In this document: positions 30,590 to 42,111 of the stretch, piece after piece
Position numbering within the stretch: position 1 is the stretch's first letter
How the letters are laid out: each line of letters begins with the position of its first letter
Origin: Desulfamplus sp.
Lineage (GTDB): Bacteria; Desulfobacterota; Desulfobacteria; Desulfobacterales; Desulfobacteraceae
NCBI GenBank assembly: GCA_015232935.1
Contig: JADFYT010000003.1
Span: 1 to 42,653 of the forward strand
DNA length: 42,653 bases
Reading direction: 5' to 3'
Notes under the pieces: model-generated
Told to the model about the DNA's origin: nothing
The model's database searches: none
Seen by the model: the letters and a program-made list of their open reading frames with translations, nothing else
Made by a program: the position numbers and the translations under genes

Positions 30590-32110
30590 TTAGAGACCTT
30601 TTTCTGAAATAACAGACAATATCTTTTCAACCACACCTCTGCCATTCTCAATCAGTTCACCTGCATTATTGCCAGTTCTGCTAACCAGTTCCTCATCGTC
30701 AAGAAGCATGTTCAGGGTTTCAAGCAGGCCATCCCTGTCTTTCACCATAAAGGCGGCACCATTTGAAAGCAAGATATCTGCAACTTCCTTAAAATCATCC
30801 ATATAGGGGCCAAACAGGACGGGTTTTGAGAAAAATGCCGGCTCTAAAGGGTTGTGACCTCCAAAAGGAAGAAGAGAACCACCCACAAATGCAATATCGC
30901 ATATTGCATAGAGCCCTGCCAGAATACCCATACTGTCCACAACTACAACATTATTCATCGAATCACTCAGCCATTGAAAACTGTCCGGAAATCCACAAAT
31001 GCTTGCAAGCTGGCAGTTCACTCCTTTTGAAATAAACATTTTTTTTATTTTTACAGATCTTTGAGGGTCTCTTGGTACTACAATCAGTTTAAAACCATCA
31101 AATCCTGACGGTTTAATCTCATCAAATTCTGCCAGTTCAATTTCATCAAATCCAGATCTTTGCTTGAAGACGATATTTTCTTTTAATTTTTTGAAAACAG
31201 ATAAAAGAATTTCCTCTTCACCGGGATGGGTACTTCCGGCAATCAAAAACTTGCCGGAAAAATCAGCTTTAAGATTCTCAAGATTCTTAATCTGTTTTAT
31301 TTCCGGTATGGGCTGATCAAATTTCATGTTTCCTGTCACCTTGATCTTCTTCTCTGGTACGCCTATTTTCATAAATCCCGCTTTGTCATTTTCTGTTTGA
31401 ACCATGATTGTTTCAAAAAGATAAAATACAGAGGAGAACAGCCTTCCAAATAGTGCGTATCCCTCTAATGAAGATCTGGACAGCCTTCCGTTCACAAGAA
31501 AAACCGGGATCTTTTTTTTATGCATATGCCATAGAAAACAAGGCCACAAATCACTCTCCACAATAATAACCAGATCAGGATCTATTCTTGAAGATATGCT
31601 TGCAACTGAAAAAAGAATATCAAAAGGGAAGTATCCGATTTCAATGGGTTGCGACTGAATGGGTTGTGAAGCAGATTTGGTAAAAAGTTTCTGTGCCATA
31701 TTAAAACCGGTTCGAGTAGAAGCGGTCATGATTAATTCGTAATATGGTTGGCTGCCTGAATCAGTGTCTTGCCCTGAATCCGTGCCTTGTTCTGAACCTG
31801 CTTGTTGCTTTGGAGATGTCTGTTGTTTTGGAGATGTTTGTTGGCCTGATATCATTGATTCAAGTTTATTTTGAATGGAATTGACAAGAGGAAGTGCGGA
31901 TTTTACCTCGCCTACGGAAAGGGCATGTATCCATATACGCTTTGTTCCCGGGGCTTTGTTTGAAATAGAACTAATCAGACCAAGGCGTTGAAGCATGTTT
32001 GATCGTCTCTTTTCTGAAAACAAAAAGACAAAAGGAAGAAATGGAAGCAGAATTAAAAAAACACTTAGAATAATTGTATTATATAAAAAAATAATTGTTG
32101 AGAAAATCAT
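30590..32110 (-). CDS. waaA: 3-deoxy-D-manno-octulosonic acid transferase (Kdo transferase) with low-complexity insertions
   Basis: RIWIHALSVGEVKSALPLV, MTASTRTGFNMA, NGRLSRSS, LIAGSTHPGEEE, GSLLPFGGHNPLEPA. Confidence 0.93.
   Translation of the reverse strand: MIFSTIIFLYNTIILSVFLILLPFLPFVFLFSEKRRSNMLQRLGLISSISNKAPGTKRIWIHALSVGEVKSALPLVNSIQNKLESMISGQQTSPKQQTSPKQQAGSEQGTDSGQDTDSGSQPYYELIMTASTRTGFNMAQKLFTKSASQPIQSQPIEIGYFPFDILFSVASISSRIDPDLVIIVESDLWPCFLWHMHKKKIPVFLVNGRLSRSSLEGYALFGRLFSSVFYLFETIMVQTENDKAGFMKIGVPEKKIKVTGNMKFDQPIPEIKQIKNLENLKADFSGKFLIAGSTHPGEEEILLSVFKKLKENIVFKQRSGFDEIELAEFDEIKPSGFDGFKLIVVPRDPQRSVKIKKMFISKGVNCQLASICGFPDSFQWLSDSMNNVVVVDSMGILAGLYAICDIAFVGGSLLPFGGHNPLEPAFFSKPVLFGPYMDDFKEVADILLSNGAAFMVKDRDGLLETLNMLLDDEELVSRTGNNAGELIENGRGVVEKILSVISEKGL
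31097..31158. repeat. 24-bp in-frame tandem repeat x2.5 inside waaA
   Basis: atcaaatcctgacggtttaatctc / atcaaattctgccagttcaatttc / atcaaatccag..., encoding SGFDEIEL AEFDEIKP SGFDGFKL. Confidence 0.8.
31756..31845. repeat. 18-bp in-frame minisatellite x5 inside waaA
   Basis: Five 18-bp units in two subtypes (ctgaatcagtgtcttgcc; ttggagatgtctgttgtt) encoding GQQTSP KQQTSP KQQAGS EQGTDS GQDTDS. Confidence 0.85.
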
Positions 32111-33391: not shown

Positions 33392-34591
33392 TCAGCGGCT
33401 TTTGGTTTCAGGAGAGTTGTTTTTGATCCTGAAAACAAGGTTCCTTGTTTTTGTGATTAGAATCAAAACAGAATCAGGAACCAACGGTTGCTCTTTTACC
33501 ACCCTTGAAAACATATATATCGCGGCTCCTCCCATTATTATATCAGGCAGCCACATTCCTATTGCAGGTGGATAATGGCCTGTAGTGCCAACAGACCACC
33601 CTGCCGCAAGAAGCAGGTAATAAAACAAAAAAAAACTCAAGGCAATGCCAAATCCTGACGAACGCCTTGAAGAGACTGACCTTACCCCAAGAGGAACAGA
33701 AAGCAGCCCCAGTGAAATGCATGCAAACGGAATCGCGAATTTTTCGTGAAGCTCCATGCTGGCAGATTTAACAACTTTTGGATCTCCATCCCATTTGTTT
33801 ATAAAATCCAGAAGTTCATTCAGGTACATCTCGTCAAAATCCTTTTCTTGCATACCTGTTTCTGATGTGGACAATCCAGTGTCAAAATTAATGTCATAGG
33901 TGTCAAAATTCACTGCATTGACAGATCGTCCTGCTATGTCAACCTGATTTATTATACCTTGAGCGAGACGAAGAGTATGGTTATCTCCCGAAGCATGTGA
34001 AACAAGAATTCCTTTTGAGGCGACCGTAATGTTAACGATTTGCGGATTGCGGCTATCTTCTATGAAGATATCTGAAAACTCGGATGTTTTTAAATCTATA
34101 GAAGTTATATAGATCATCACATTGTCAAAGGTATTGTTGAACTGCCGCTCCTTTAAGGCAACATTAATAGTTGCCCTGGCAAGTTCAACTCCTTTTGTAG
34201 AAAAGGAAAATCTTCCCCATGGCACACCCCAAAGAGTAATCCACAAAGAGATAATCATCCCGAGAATACAAAAGAGAATAACAGGCGGAATAAGCCGGTA
34301 AATACTTATACCGCTCCCTTTTAGTGCTATAATTTCATTATCATTTGACATTCTCATGACTGTCAGAAGGACGGAAATCATGACTGACATGGGAAGGGTA
34401 AACTCCATAAAACGGGGAACTGAATACAGAATCAACATAAATACAGAGGAGAGTCCGGCATTATAGTTGACAACCATATTTGTAATCTCGGGAATTCTTG
34501 TCATCAGAAACATGAAGGTCAAAAATGCAAGGCAAATAGCAAAAGGGAAGAGCAGCTCCCTGAAAATATATCTGTTTAATATGGTATTCAT
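33392..34591 (-). CDS. lptF: LPS export ABC transporter permease LptF
   Basis: YjgP/YjgQ family; MNTILNRYIFRELLFPF, LPMSVMISVLLTVMRMSNDNEIIALKGSGISIYRL. Confidence 0.9.
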   Translation of the reverse strand: MNTILNRYIFRELLFPFAICLAFLTFMFLMTRIPEITNMVVNYNAGLSSVFMLILYSVPRFMEFTLPMSVMISVLLTVMRMSNDNEIIALKGSGISIYRLIPPVILFCILGMIISLWITLWGVPWGRFSFSTKGVELARATINVALKERQFNNTFDNVMIYITSIDLKTSEFSDIFIEDSRNPQIVNITVASKGILVSHASGDNHTLRLAQGIINQVDIAGRSVNAVNFDTYDINFDTGLSTSETGMQEKDFDEMYLNELLDFINKWDGDPKVVKSASMELHEKFAIPFACISLGLLSVPLGVRSVSSRRSSGFGIALSFFLFYYLLLAAGWSVGTTGHYPPAIGMWLPDIIMGGAAIYMFSRVVKEQPLVPDSVLILITKTRNLVFRIKNNSPETKSR

Positions 34592-36066
34592 ACTTTTTTG
34601 GACAATCTTGACTTGTCTGTTTTAGACAATATGGTTTTATCCTCTCGATATGCCGCAAGTTTGGCAATATCAATGTCCCCAAGGGTAATTTTCAAACCCT
34701 CTTTTTTGTTCAAGGCAAGTTTAAACCAGTTTTCCAGCTCTTTTGACAGGATCTCCTCTCCAACCTGTTTTGTACCGTTTTTGCCTGCAACGTTGTTGTC
34801 CATATAGCCGGAATTGATAAATGTCCATATCCCGTCCTTTTTTGATATGACGCCAGTATGCCCTCTGGTACGGGTAGAGAAAGAGAGTATCTGCCCCTCT
34901 TTCAAGACTTTTTCCATCTCTTTCATTACATTTTCAGCCTGAGAAAGTGGATTCTTGACTCTCAAGAGAGTTTTGTTATAGACACTGTAACCGGTTGCTT
35001 CAAGAAGACCTTCACCAGTCAGATAATGATTTCTTGACAACCCTTTATCAATGGCTTTAGATACAAGATGCCTTCCAAGTCCACCTTGTCCCCTGTACTT
35101 TACCCCCATATTTGTCAAACCACCAACTACAAGCTCATAACAGTCCATTTTGCTGTAATCCTTTCCCATGAATTCCCGGACAGCCTCATTAAGGGCAGGT
35201 TCAGATTTTCCTGAAGATTTACGGGATGCAGCAGAGGATTGAGAAAAATCCTGTTCAGCATTATAAATATCTGGTTTGTATATTTTTCTGGAAAGGGCAG
35301 TTGTGCCAATGTCGGGATGATTGGCAATGGAGTCAGAATGACTGGCAACAGAAACGGCGGAAATGCCGCCAGAACCTGTACTGACAAAGCTGGCAGGACT
35401 CCCAAATTGAAGCTCAGGAGCATTAGATCTACGACTTGCAGAATCCTTATTCTGGAAAGATTTTGAGAGTATTTCAGATTCTGGTTTTGAGAATGTTTCA
35501 GATTTAGAATTACCAGTAGGCTCGGGTGAACCTTCAGAGCCTTTAGTACTACCTAAAGGGGTGCCAGTAATATTACCGGAAGAAATTCCAGATATTGTCC
35601 TCTTTTCTATATAATGGTCTTTGCCCCAGACAATTTCAGAAGTTTCCCTGTCTAAATAGATATCTGTACCAGCCGGAATCCGCTTGAAATGTTTGGAGGA
35701 GTTCACATCTTTCTCAAGCATTTCCCAGCAATCTTTTTTATATCGCGTAGAATAAAGAAGCTCTGAAACTGTAGGGGTATCACCTGAAATTGTGCCGAGA
35801 TGAATCTTTTGCGACTCATCATTTGCATTCCGAGGATTATTATCTGAATTCTGGTTCCGGCTGTTTGTACCCTGTAAAGAGAACAACGATGAACCATCAG
35901 GTTCAAAACCACTTCTTTGCACACCAACCATGCTTTGCAAAGCACTATTGCTGCTTTGTGAACTCTCCTTCATTATTGATTTGAAGCTTTTCTGCCCGGA
36001 AACAGACTTGTTATCAAAAGATGACGTTGGAGCATAAGTTCGTTTATCAAATGAATCTACCAGCAT
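34588..36066 (-). CDS. Hypothetical protein with long disordered N-terminus and C-terminal NlpC/P60-like (cysteine hydrolase-like) domain
   Basis: KMDCYELVVGGLTNMGVKYRGQGGLG ... RGHTGVISKKDGIWTFINSG Cys/His/Asn spacing; 4-bp overlap with lptF. Confidence 0.55.
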   Translation of the reverse strand: MLVDSFDKRTYAPTSSFDNKSVSGQKSFKSIMKESSQSSNSALQSMVGVQRSGFEPDGSSLFSLQGTNSRNQNSDNNPRNANDESQKIHLGTISGDTPTVSELLYSTRYKKDCWEMLEKDVNSSKHFKRIPAGTDIYLDRETSEIVWGKDHYIEKRTISGISSGNITGTPLGSTKGSEGSPEPTGNSKSETFSKPESEILSKSFQNKDSASRRSNAPELQFGSPASFVSTGSGGISAVSVASHSDSIANHPDIGTTALSRKIYKPDIYNAEQDFSQSSAASRKSSGKSEPALNEAVREFMGKDYSKMDCYELVVGGLTNMGVKYRGQGGLGRHLVSKAIDKGLSRNHYLTGEGLLEATGYSVYNKTLLRVKNPLSQAENVMKEMEKVLKEGQILSFSTRTRGHTGVISKKDGIWTFINSGYMDNNVAGKNGTKQVGEEILSKELENWFKLALNKKEGLKITLGDIDIAKLAAYREDKTILSKTDKSRLSKKV

Positions 36067-36163
36067 GTTTACCTCCATTTTGCACGGATATTGATTCAGT
36101 AATGGTATTCCTTAAATATGCTTTCAATCCTGAATCAACAAACAAGCAAAAAACACGCCATCT

Positions 36164-37300: not shown

Positions 37301-38218
37301 TCAACAAGAATAACCCTTGACACCCATTGAGACCACATATTCCGCGAACAGCAAATCCTCTTTTGTGGTAATTTTGATGTTCCTTGCCAGGCCGGACGTC
37401 ATAAATACCCTTGCACCGGTTTTTTCAACAAGAGAAGCATCATCAGTAGCCGATATACCCGAAATCAGGGCTTGTTCATGAGCCTTGATTACAAGATCAA
37501 GATCAAATGCCTGAGGAGTCTGCACCTGATATAGATTTTCTCTGTCCACAACCTCAGAGACAAAACCGTCAGAGTCTTTTCGTTTAAGCGTGTCTGCCAC
37601 GGGTACTGCCGGTATGCATGCCCCATGTTCAAGTACACCTGCAATGCAACGGGATATCAAACCATGGTCAACAAAGGGACGCACACCATCATGTATAAGG
37701 ACTATCTTTAATTTTTTTTTGTTTGCTGCATATTTATTTGCTGCATATGGGATTGAACTCTTGTTCGCTGCATATGAAATCGAATTCTTGTTTGTTGTAT
37801 ATGAAACTGAACTATCATCAATAGTACTATGGCCACAGGAGGATTGAGTTGTTTTTTTTTGATGACAGGAGTCATTTATATTTCCAACTGGAGTTTTTGA
37901 ACAAGAGAGTTCCTTTACCTTTTCAAGACCATTCATGACAGAGTGTTGCCGCTCTGATCCGCCTGATACCATGCATACTTTTCCATTAAGGCTATGTGAT
38001 GAAACTATATTGTCAAAACAATACTGCATGTCATCTTTGGGTATGACAAGAACAATCTTGCCAATCGATTCAAAACTGCTGAAGATATCAAGTGTGCGGG
38101 CAAGAACAGGAATCCCTGAAATTTTAATATACTGCTTGCGTATCTCGGACCCCATTCTAAGTCCCTTGCCACCGGCCACAATCACAGCGTATATTTCACA
38201 GTCTTTCATGTGTTTCAT
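37301..38218 (-). CDS. ispD: 2-C-methyl-D-erythritol 4-phosphate cytidylyltransferase with about 65-aa repeat-bearing insertion
   Basis: AVIVAGGKGLRMGSEIRKQYIKISGIPVLARTLDIF, HDGVRPFV, PVADTLK, QTPQAF, TDDASLVEKTGARV. Confidence 0.93.
   Translation of the reverse strand: MKHMKDCEIYAVIVAGGKGLRMGSEIRKQYIKISGIPVLARTLDIFSSFESIGKIVLVIPKDDMQYCFDNIVSSHSLNGKVCMVSGGSERQHSVMNGLEKVKELSCSKTPVGNINDSCHQKKTTQSSCGHSTIDDSSVSYTTNKNSISYAANKSSIPYAANKYAANKKKLKIVLIHDGVRPFVDHGLISRCIAGVLEHGACIPAVPVADTLKRKDSDGFVSEVVDRENLYQVQTPQAFDLDLVIKAHEQALISGISATDDASLVEKTGARVFMTSGLARNIKITTKEDLLFAEYVVSMGVKGYSC
37722..37817. repeat. 27-bp in-frame minisatellite x3 plus a 15-bp truncated unit inside ispD
   Basis: tttgctgcatatggg attgaactcttg / ttcgctgcatatgaaatcgaattcttg / tttgttgtatatgaaactgaactatca; encodes YTTNKNSIS YAANKSSIP YAANK YAANK. 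Confidence 0.88.
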
Positions 38219-38221
38219 GGG

Positions 38222-39529
38222 TTATCTCAGATAGGATAATTGCTTTGGAAGAGGGATTCCCTTGCCCATTGAGTCTTCAGCATAATTCACGCCTGCAAGA
38301 ACCTCAAGATCCTCAAGAGCTCTTGTGTCTCCCTCAAAAACAACCTGTTCCAGCTCTTCTTTTTTTATTTTGCCGCCTGCCCATTGCAGATCAAGAACAC
38401 TTGACGCATCAAACCTGTCATCTCCCAGAACCATCTGGACATCTCCGCCATAGTGCTGAACAATTTTTGCTACCAGAAGGCATGGTCTGGTGTGAAACCC
38501 GCGCTCTTTTGGAATGCCTACGGTAATGGAAGATCTGTCAATATTTTCGTTCAGGATTTCCAGGGCAATACGTTGTCCTGACGACAAAAACTGCCAGGCG
38601 TAAAAAAGAGAGTAGTTTACACAGCGATCAAGCAGTACATCCGGATCAATCAACTCTGCAAGGGATTCACTGACGTTTTTATAAAAATCCTTGTAATCAA
38701 CATCAAGAAGATGACGTTCATAGAAGTGGAGAAGTCTTCCCATGACCTGCAGTATATGAAATACAATGGAAAAGTGACTTCTGAGCTGCTTGAGTTTTCT
38801 GTTTCCATGGAAAAAACCACCATGAATCACATATGAGTCAAAGGATGACTGGAGATTGTGCAGAAGCATTTCAAAACGGCGAATCCCGACTTCATTGACC
38901 TTTGAAGGTATAATCTCGCGTATCTGATCGCTACTATAGCGTTCATAAAAGGAAAAAGGTTCAAAAGCCTTTATAAGATCAAGAAATTCGCTGGCAATAA
39001 TAATGAGATTTTTACGCTGATCCGTTCTGTTTTCAAAATCATCAATATCATGTTCAAGCTGCTCTGTTGTGGCAATATCAGGAAAAAACTCAGGATCATA
39101 CCCTTTTACAGGAATCTCTATTCCAAGACGCTCAGCCTCAGCAATAATTACCGGAGCGGCAAGTTCAATTGATCCTTGAATCATCATCAGGGTATCTCTT
39201 GATTCATCAATAAAGGCTTCATCCTTTTTTTCAAAATCGTAAAAAACAATGCGGTTAAAAATATGCTTCTGGGAATATCCGGCCAGGGAGAGATGCCTTA
39301 TAGCAGCACTTAACTCTCTGTAGAAAATCCATTTTTTGTTATTTTTAGCACCATGAAAATCGAGAAAGTCTTCCAGCAGGTGAGACGATGTAATGAGTTT
39401 GGAATAGACTTTCTTGTTAAGCAGATAAGGTTCATCCTTAAACTCCAGAATATATAGAATGCATTTTAAATACTCAAAGGAGAAGTGATTAACCTTTCCC
39501 TTAAAAGAGATATCACATGAAATATGCAT
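38222..39529 (-). CDS. Unknown about 340-aa domain fused to C-terminal HPr (PTS phosphocarrier-like) domain
   Basis: C-terminal SSITVGIPKERGFHTRPCLLVAKIVQHYGGDVQMVLGDDRFDASSVLDLQWAGGKIKKEE... aligns by eye with HPr GLHTRPA and SAKSLFKL regions; His codon at 38492-38494. Confidence 0.8.
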   Translation of the reverse strand: MHISCDISFKGKVNHFSFEYLKCILYILEFKDEPYLLNKKVYSKLITSSHLLEDFLDFHGAKNNKKWIFYRELSAAIRHLSLAGYSQKHIFNRIVFYDFEKKDEAFIDESRDTLMMIQGSIELAAPVIIAEAERLGIEIPVKGYDPEFFPDIATTEQLEHDIDDFENRTDQRKNLIIIASEFLDLIKAFEPFSFYERYSSDQIREIIPSKVNEVGIRRFEMLLHNLQSSFDSYVIHGGFFHGNRKLKQLRSHFSIVFHILQVMGRLLHFYERHLLDVDYKDFYKNVSESLAELIDPDVLLDRCVNYSLFYAWQFLSSGQRIALEILNENIDRSSITVGIPKERGFHTRPCLLVAKIVQHYGGDVQMVLGDDRFDASSVLDLQWAGGKIKKEELEQVVFEGDTRALEDLEVLAGVNYAEDSMGKGIPLPKQLSYLR

Positions 39530-39535
39530 GGCTAT

Positions 39536-40840
39536 TTACATCATATCCTTTTCAGTCTCTTTAACAGCCTCATCAATTCTGGTTTCAAGATCTGCCGGGA
39601 GTCCTTCAATCTCGACATTCAAAAAGCCCCTGACAATAGTTGAAATTGCCTCTTCTTCATCCAGGCCTCTTGCCATGAGATACTCAATCTCACGCTTGTC
39701 AATCTTGCCGACAGCGGCTTCATGAGACATCTCAACCCCGGGAGTATGGCCTGAAAGTTCAGGAATGGCATGTAAAAGCCCTTCCTTTAAAATCAGACCT
39801 TTACATTCAAGATGACCTTTTACTCCAGGCTCTTTTCCCATAAGGTGACCGCGTGAAATAATGGTACCTCCCGCAACGATGGCTCTGGATATTATCTCTG
39901 CTCTTGCACCGGTACCGTTTAGTTCCACAACAGACCCCATATCCATATAAGTGCCCTTCCCTGCCACTAAAATACTGTTTATTCTGGCGGTGGCATTTTT
40001 TTCAAGCATGGTCACGGGATTTGAAACAATTGAACCCACAGGCCGCAAAGAGATGTAATTTGAGATAAAAACACCACCTTCATCCACATGAACCGCTGTT
40101 TTAGGACGAACATAGACATTTTCACCCCAATCATGGATCATGGTATATTTAAGAGTTGCCCCTTTTTTGATATAAAACTCGGAAAGTCCTATATGCAGGC
40201 CGGATTCAAGGTGCTCAGATGTTGAACATCCTGCAATGATATGAAGTTCGGAATCCTCCTCTACCACAACAATATTGTGCACCTTTTGAGAAAATTTTTC
40301 CTTTGCAATATGCAGACATGTCTGAAGAGGCTTTTGTGCCTTGACTCCCTTTTTGATCCAGATAAAAAATCCCTGATCCGGTTTGATATTGACAGATCTG
40401 GTGATCTCGTCCTGTTCAGGCGAAAGAAGCCTCCACAAATATTTTTCCCCAAGCCAGTCATGCTGTTCAAGGGCATTTGCGATACCCTTGATTTCAACAC
40501 CTTCAATACTTTTACTGCAATGGACAATTGTGCTGTCCTTCTGGATGAAAGTCCCGGCTCTTAGCGTGCTGTCAGTATCAATTCCTACTTTGACAAACTC
40601 CTTTACATCGTCCTGGCCAATTGTCTCAAGAATTTCGACATAATCATGATTTTCTGCCGCATCAATAAAGTCTGACAAACTTATATTTTTCACTTTATCA
40701 AGAGTCTTTGGCCTGTTATTTATATTGTCTGCCTTTTTTGCATGAACATAAGCAGCTTCGTTGCAATTTTGGCCGGATTGAAATTCCTGATTAATCAAAC
40801 AGGTCTCTTCTTCACCTTTCAGGCTGTACATTCCACACAC
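39536..40840 (-). CDS. SufB/SufD-family Fe-S assembly scaffold (SmsB-like)
   Basis: SufBD core: IVVVEEDSELHIIAGCS, KGATLKYTMIHDWGENVYVRP, HLECKGLILKEG, PELSGHTPGVEMSHEAAVGKI. Confidence 0.9.
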   Translation of the reverse strand: MCGMYSLKGEEETCLINQEFQSGQNCNEAAYVHAKKADNINNRPKTLDKVKNISLSDFIDAAENHDYVEILETIGQDDVKEFVKVGIDTDSTLRAGTFIQKDSTIVHCSKSIEGVEIKGIANALEQHDWLGEKYLWRLLSPEQDEITRSVNIKPDQGFFIWIKKGVKAQKPLQTCLHIAKEKFSQKVHNIVVVEEDSELHIIAGCSTSEHLESGLHIGLSEFYIKKGATLKYTMIHDWGENVYVRPKTAVHVDEGGVFISNYISLRPVGSIVSNPVTMLEKNATARINSILVAGKGTYMDMGSVVELNGTGARAEIISRAIVAGGTIISRGHLMGKEPGVKGHLECKGLILKEGLLHAIPELSGHTPGVEMSHEAAVGKIDKREIEYLMARGLDEEEAISTIVRGFLNVEIEGLPADLETRIDEAVKETEKDMM

Positions 40841-41577
40841 TCCTCATATCCGTATTCTCTGATCCACTTCAATATTTCCCTTGCATTTCTGGAACAGCGT
40901 AACTGCCCTTTATACAAAACCTGTCCTCTGTCAGCCGTAATATAATCCAGAATATGGCCGGTATGGGTGATTACCAGAGCTGATTTGGGAGTGCCTGACA
41001 TGATAGTATTTTTGTGGCATGGAGATGCCTTTTGTATGCCTCTGTCAAGAAGGTTGTTTATGCTGTCTCCAAGAAGTGCTATAGACTCAAGATCGACTCC
41101 GGATTCCGGCTCGTCCAGCAAAAGCAGATCCGGCTGCTGGGCAGAAAGTTGAAGAAGTTCTGATCGTTTGATCTCCCCTCCTGAAAGATTATGATTTACA
41201 TCCCGTTCTATAAAGTCATCAAACTTAAGTTTTTTTGACAATGCCTCCACGTTCACACTTTTTCCACCCGCGCAAATTTCTACCATCCGGCGAGTTGACA
41301 GACCATTTATTGTGGGTGGGCGTTGAAACAACACTCCTACGCCAAGGCGAGCCCTCTCATGAATTGGCATATAGGTTATATCTTCACCCTTGAAGATTAT
41401 CTTTCCCCGTGTAACCTTATATCCAGAAAACCCCATTATAGTCATCATAAGAGATGTTTTGCCAGATCCATTAGGGCCAAACAGAATATGTGTCTCTCCA
41501 GGAGGTACATGCAGATTTACATTCTGCAGAATCTCTCTGTCACCGATCTCCACCTTAAGTTCTTCTATTATCAGCAT
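40819..41577 (-). CDS. sufC: SufC-family Fe-S assembly ATPase (SmsC-like)
   Basis: LFGPNGSGKTSLMMTIMGFSGY, LSGGEIKRSELLQLSAQQPDLLLLDEPESGVDLESI, VITHTGHILDYI. Confidence 0.92.
   Translation of the reverse strand: MLIIEELKVEIGDREILQNVNLHVPPGETHILFGPNGSGKTSLMMTIMGFSGYKVTRGKIIFKGEDITYMPIHERARLGVGVLFQRPPTINGLSTRRMVEICAGGKSVNVEALSKKLKFDDFIERDVNHNLSGGEIKRSELLQLSAQQPDLLLLDEPESGVDLESIALLGDSINNLLDRGIQKASPCHKNTIMSGTPKSALVITHTGHILDYITADRGQVLYKGQLRCSRNAREILKWIREYGYEECVECTA

Positions 41578-41656: not shown

Positions 41657-42111
<455 letters not shown>

Follow-up and report, generated by a model that had tools for sequence, protein, structure and literature searches.

An obligate fusion of HPr to a novel helical domain as a candidate output of the regulatory PTS in Desulfamplus sp. 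and its class

What does an HPr domain do when it is carried not by a small PTS protein but at the end of a large domain of no recognized family, with iron-sulfur assembly genes on one side and ispD on the other? This question is raised by a gene in the window, by which we mean the whole analyzed stretch of 42,653 nucleotides from Desulfamplus sp. The gene belongs to a tight minus-strand run in the order rnpB, smsC/sufC-like, smsB/sufB-like, fusion gene and ispD (Table 1; gene names other than those of Pfam-tested proteins were assigned by eye). The open reading frame reported in the first-pass annotation of this DNA is reproduced exactly here (435 aa, Table 1). The same annotation had noted 3 nt between the stop of the fusion gene and the start of ispD; we measured the same distance to the ispD ATG, and found that the SmsB stop and the ATG of the fusion gene are separated by 6 nt.

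Table 1. Features of the fusion gene and its neighbours (window coordinates)
Feature	Position	Strand	Basis or remark
Fusion gene (435 aa) with novel helical domain, HPr and conserved tail	38222..39529	-	Full length retained across 70 aligned homologues
N-terminal domain (residues 1-331), all helix, one four-helix unit after another	38537..39529	-	AF2
HPr domain, residues 332-415	38285..38536	-	Pfam family matches, AF2/Foldseek, profile-profile
His346 codon, equivalent of phosphorylated His15 of HPr	38492..38494	-	Invariant 70/70
Arg348 codon, equivalent of HPr Arg17	38486..38488	-	Invariant 70/70
Ser377 codon, equivalent of HPr Ser46	38399..38401	-	S in 68/70, N in 2/70
Conserved C-terminal tail, residues 416-435 (YxEDxMGKGxPLPxxLSYL)	38225..38284	-	Low pLDDT, then short helix
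ispD	37301..38218	-	3 nt downstream of fusion-gene stop
SmsB/SufB-like gene	39536..40840	-	6 nt upstream of fusion gene
SmsC/SufC-like ATPase gene	40819..41577	-	22-nt overlap with smsB
RNase P RNA (rnpB)	41659..42105	-	Rfam RF00010, 315 bits; part of conserved upstream gene context

Several other features of the window were recorded. The rnpB gene lies directly upstream of the operon, and a size-matched gap is present at that place in many loci of the class. In ispD some 50-65 aa of low complexity have been inserted (37718-37813), in part as in-frame tandem repeats (YAANKxSIPY-like); IspD is 305 aa long in the window, 279 in a sister genome and about 230-250 in most others. Short in-frame tandem repeats are also found in the KdtA-like glycosyltransferase gene (31096-31153 and 31755-31843), and this Desulfamplus sp. 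genome may be prone to short repeat insertions within core enzymes. A gene at 34588-36078 (-), flanked by a substrate-binding-protein gene and LptF, encodes a protein of 496 aa whose long N-terminal half is rich in Ser and whose C-terminal half looks conserved.

Residues 332-415 are confirmed as a genuine HPr domain, as had been proposed for the C-terminal part of the protein; the boundaries are now refined, and a 20-residue tail, conserved in the fusion family and absent from HPr, follows the domain. A profile of the domain matched one built from 14 stand-alone HPrs of this phylum with E=3.5e-15 over 87 columns, and in a Foldseek search with the full-length AlphaFold2 model (mean pLDDT 88, pTM 0.86) solved HPrs ranked at the top (3lfg, TM by target 0.79, prob 1.00). 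The single fusion protein scores 17.7 bits against PF00381, under the Pfam cut-off of 23, and PF00381 is matched by each of the 52 sequences in the first alignment of the family, with a best E of 9.6e-5. Judged by profile-profile comparison, the domain is a divergent relative of HPr. The divergence is found around the EI-facing helix, where the family has an AGG loop insertion and a Trp383 that is nearly invariant. The active site is strictly kept: G344, F345, H346, R348 and P349 of the GFHxRP motif are invariant in 70/70 homologues, so that the phosphorylatable His noted at first pass is present in every one of them, and the Ser46-helix region is likewise retained (Table 1). Chance is excluded as the source of this arrangement, because the whole architecture is conserved down to 21% identity in the N-terminal domain. 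In the stand-alone HPrs of some genomes (L074, L077, L078 and L080) the motif reads GLHARAAA, with Ala in place of Pro after the equivalent of Arg17.

The N-terminal part, described earlier as helix-rich and outside known families, bears out both descriptions. Modelled alone (AF2, 64 sequences), it is all helix with pLDDT 93 and pTM 0.92; the predicted helices span residues 9-29, 39-58, 68-96 and 104-134 in the first unit and 168-192, 213-233, 244-274 and 296-329 in the second. Residues 1-331 have no family match in Pfam, NCBIfam, PHROGs or PADLOC and contain no PTS domain in Pfam searches, and in Foldseek neither solved structures nor viral models came up at E<=0.001. Scattered weak Pfam matches, and PDB profile matches to mosquito salivary proteins (E 0.01-0.04), were judged to be chance. 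The domain is thus new to the libraries and adds a domain family to annotate. Thirteen of its residues are invariant among the 64 sequences (E53, L56, D57, A61, W67, P208, H224, S228, D231, R250, H268, R272 and H273), and these hold down to 21% identity. Most are Glu, Asp, His or Arg, and such polar invariants suggest a ligand-binding or active site. A twofold internal repeat is also suggested: an offset of 179 residues, first among 160 offsets, pairs S49/R71/H89/R93 with S228/R250/H268/R272, and the helices of the two halves line up; hhalign of the two halves is not significant (P 0.07-0.09).

The fusion gene is near-universal in its class and patchy elsewhere in the phylum. In the first set of genomes, which includes the source genome, 53 of 58 contain a family match; named relatives come from Desulfamplus, Desulfobacula and other Desulfobacterales/Desulfobacteraceae MAGs. 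Within the class the family was found in 282/292 genomes and in 199/202 good genomes, almost always as one full-length copy per genome. The survey covered genomes of the same phylum, and the family occurs in 39 of the 396 genomes sampled there, 17 of them in the same order and the rest in a limited set of other families. In these 396 genomes the N-terminal domain always stands in one full-length frame with HPr, save for one fragment at a contig edge. A defence or phage origin was rejected: PADLOC and PHROGs gave no match, and the viral contigs and plasmids searched hold no relative of the fusion gene.

Are there proteins that could phosphorylate this domain? No PTS gene had been seen around the fusion gene, and this is correct for the window; the same assembly, which is 64% complete, nevertheless encodes a GAF-type EI (PtsP, 823 aa), EIIA-Ntr (ptsN), EIIA-Man and RapZ, all beyond the window, with the cluster hpf-ptsN-rapZ-EIIA-Man-tpiA located on contig C66 (L158, 726-3272). 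Among relatives, EI is present in 54/58 genomes and EIIA-Man in 29/30, and in sister genomes a stand-alone HPr gene lies immediately upstream of EI. No EIIB or EIIC genes were recognized in the PTS clusters examined, as in a purely regulatory PTS. EI and EIIA partners are present in the genome; hprK was not found.

We propose that the fusion acts in the cytoplasm as an output, or integrating, component of a regulatory PTS, in which EI phosphorylates His346 and thereby controls the helical domain, a reading that we hold with somewhat more confidence than doubt. His346 would receive its phosphate from an EI that depends on PEP (ptsI, or PtsP of the GAF type), either directly or through the EI/HPr/EIIA pool, so that the phosphorylation state of this residue would report the supply of PEP. 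This state would in turn change how active the helical domain is or how it binds partners; the conserved His/Arg/Asp/Glu set of that domain may be suited to an anionic ligand or to catalysis. We infer the phosphorylation step by EI, its coupling to the helical domain, and a ligand or target of whatever kind. We counted in favour of the proposal the HPr domain with its invariant GFHxRP, the obligate fusion, the distribution in the class, the frequency of EI in relatives, the invariant polar residues of the N-terminal domain, the EI, ptsN, rapZ and EIIA-Man genes of the source genome, and the PTS clusters in which neither EIIB nor EIIC was recognized. Counted against it were the lack of a family-wide conserved neighbour, the coexistence of stand-alone HPr in many genomes, which EI may prefer, and the divergence near the EI-facing helix. 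There is precedent for such outputs: E. coli NPr binds and inhibits LpxD, according to a citation in PMC13104625, and PTS-HPr domains occur in the regulatory regions of sigma54 activators (PMC6615313). A more specific version, which we offer only tentatively, is that the N-terminal domain represents a new fold family with an enzymatic or sensory activity of its own, switched by the phospho-His of the attached HPr; if so, the class would possess a hitherto undescribed type of core PTS output.

Could the HPr domain be present without being phosphorylated? It might be a degenerate scaffold or decoy that docks EI or EIIA, and the helical domain an enzyme or binding module that works independently of His346. 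The Pfam score under threshold, the additional AGG loop together with Trp383 beside the EI-facing helix, and the stand-alone HPr in sister genomes are all consistent with this. However, a scaffold would not need the His, and the 70 sequences, whose N-domain identity falls to 21%, keep the active-site Gly, Phe, His, Arg and Pro without exception; we therefore consider a non-phosphorylated scaffold unlikely.

Does the gene neighbourhood name a target? The fusion gene had been linked to the adjacent ispD, and within the class this arrangement is kept: ispD directly follows on the same strand in 51/54 loci, often within a few bases. Outside the class, none of the 14 loci (tblastn) adjoins ispD. 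The ispD link is lineage-specific, and because it is confined in this way it may reflect a common operon rather than a common function. Class-wide, the order is that of a housekeeping block: two large conserved genes, taken by eye for dnaG and rpoD, come first, a Nif3-like gene and one for a zinc-ribbon protein follow, and rnpB is last. In loci from other classes one finds instead pheST-ihfA-merR type genes, ffh, kdsB and uppP. Since the neighbours differ outside the class, no single neighbour names the target, and none is conserved across the whole family when class and outside loci are compared. The earlier suggestion of a phosphorelay-type regulator linking metabolic state to Fe-S assembly or envelope precursors thus stands in part: a regulator is plausible, but the tie to Fe-S assembly is not supported, because SufB precedes the fusion gene in 27/51 class loci and in 0/14 loci outside the class (tblastn). 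We reject a Fe-S regulator on this ground.

The neighbourhood also bears on a further alternative, namely that the fusion is dedicated to regulating ispD (isoprenoid precursors that go into quinones and the cell wall) or envelope precursors, through contact between proteins as with NPr and LpxD. The close ispD pairing in the class argues for it, as does one distant genome (L128, 6373-9490) in which the fusion gene lies 26 nt before rapZ (RapZ confirmed) and a hexapeptide-repeat protein gene. The E. coli homologue of RapZ controls GlmS. Yet none of the 14 loci outside the class has ispD beside the gene, the other neighbours are unrelated, and a second genome of the same family as L128 (L190) has no rapZ link, so that the RapZ link was rejected; we regard a dedicated regulator of ispD or the envelope as rather improbable.

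Control through the Ser46 equivalent, with a Crh- or HPr(Ser)-like domain acting after an HPr kinase phosphorylates Ser377, is very unlikely. The conservation of Ser377 in 68/70 homologues is what would be expected of it, but Asn takes its place in the other two, and Ser46, which caps helix B, is also retained in the HPrs of bacteria that lack the kinase. Moreover, HPr kinase, named at first as a possible partner, was not found: its N-domain (PF02603) is matched in 0/58 related genomes, a search in which the one positive control genome was matched and which a very divergent kinase could escape, and its C-domain (PF07475) gives partial matches only, mostly sub-threshold. The kinase route is accordingly disfavoured. 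Finally, the helical domain might have diverged from CHAD and, under PTS control, bind polyphosphate. Suggestive of this are one weak Foldseek match of the full-length model to the CHAD protein 6rn5 (prob 0.75, E 0.12) and the two four-helix units with conserved His/Arg, but the better N-domain model has no CHAD match among the matches listed, profile-profile comparison with eight CHAD proteins from relatives gave P=0.58, and there is no Pfam CHAD match, and we reject this weak lead as extremely improbable.

Regulatory PTSs without transporters are widespread, but the outputs of such systems have been identified in few bacteria. In the open-access literature we found no description of this fusion family. 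An intact HPr active site on an unnamed domain, encoded by a single-copy gene in about 98% of good class genomes, is thus a direct, testable candidate for such an output, relevant to sulfate reducers and their relatives.

It is instructive to compare the fusion with known systems that use HPr. With stand-alone HPr and NPr (PF00381, TIGR01003) it has in common the fold, the His15/Arg17 motif and the Ser46 helix, at the profile similarity given above, and EI is present in the genome; unlike them, it falls under the family cut-offs, including the curated one of Pfam, lies outside pts or rpoN clusters, and carries 331 extra residues, Trp383, the AGG insertion and the C-terminal tail. Stand-alone HPr and NPr are single domains of about 85-95 aa, whereas this protein has 435 aa and is always fused. 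In the multiphosphoryl transfer proteins (FPr, DhaM, FruB), as here, HPr is a module of a larger protein; reviewed multidomain HPr proteins join it to IIA and/or EI domains (PMC2405797), whereas in the fusion the partner is a non-PTS domain. By the searches above, the fusion is classed neither with these proteins nor with hprK-controlled HPr or CHAD proteins. A further likeness is to sigma54 activators of Clostridiales in which PTS-HPr forms a regulatory domain (PMC6615313): there too HPr is joined to a module from outside the PTS, presumably as a means of PTS control, although the fusion has no AAA+ or DNA-binding domain and its helical domain is unrelated. With the PTS-Ntr of Pseudomonadota this genome has in common EI-Ntr, EIIA-Ntr, EIIA-Man and RapZ, and an rpoN-type cluster contains three of the four. 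In the E. coli rpoN cluster npr follows rapZ; in Desulfamplus sp. EIIA-Man occupies that place, and the fused HPr is encoded elsewhere.
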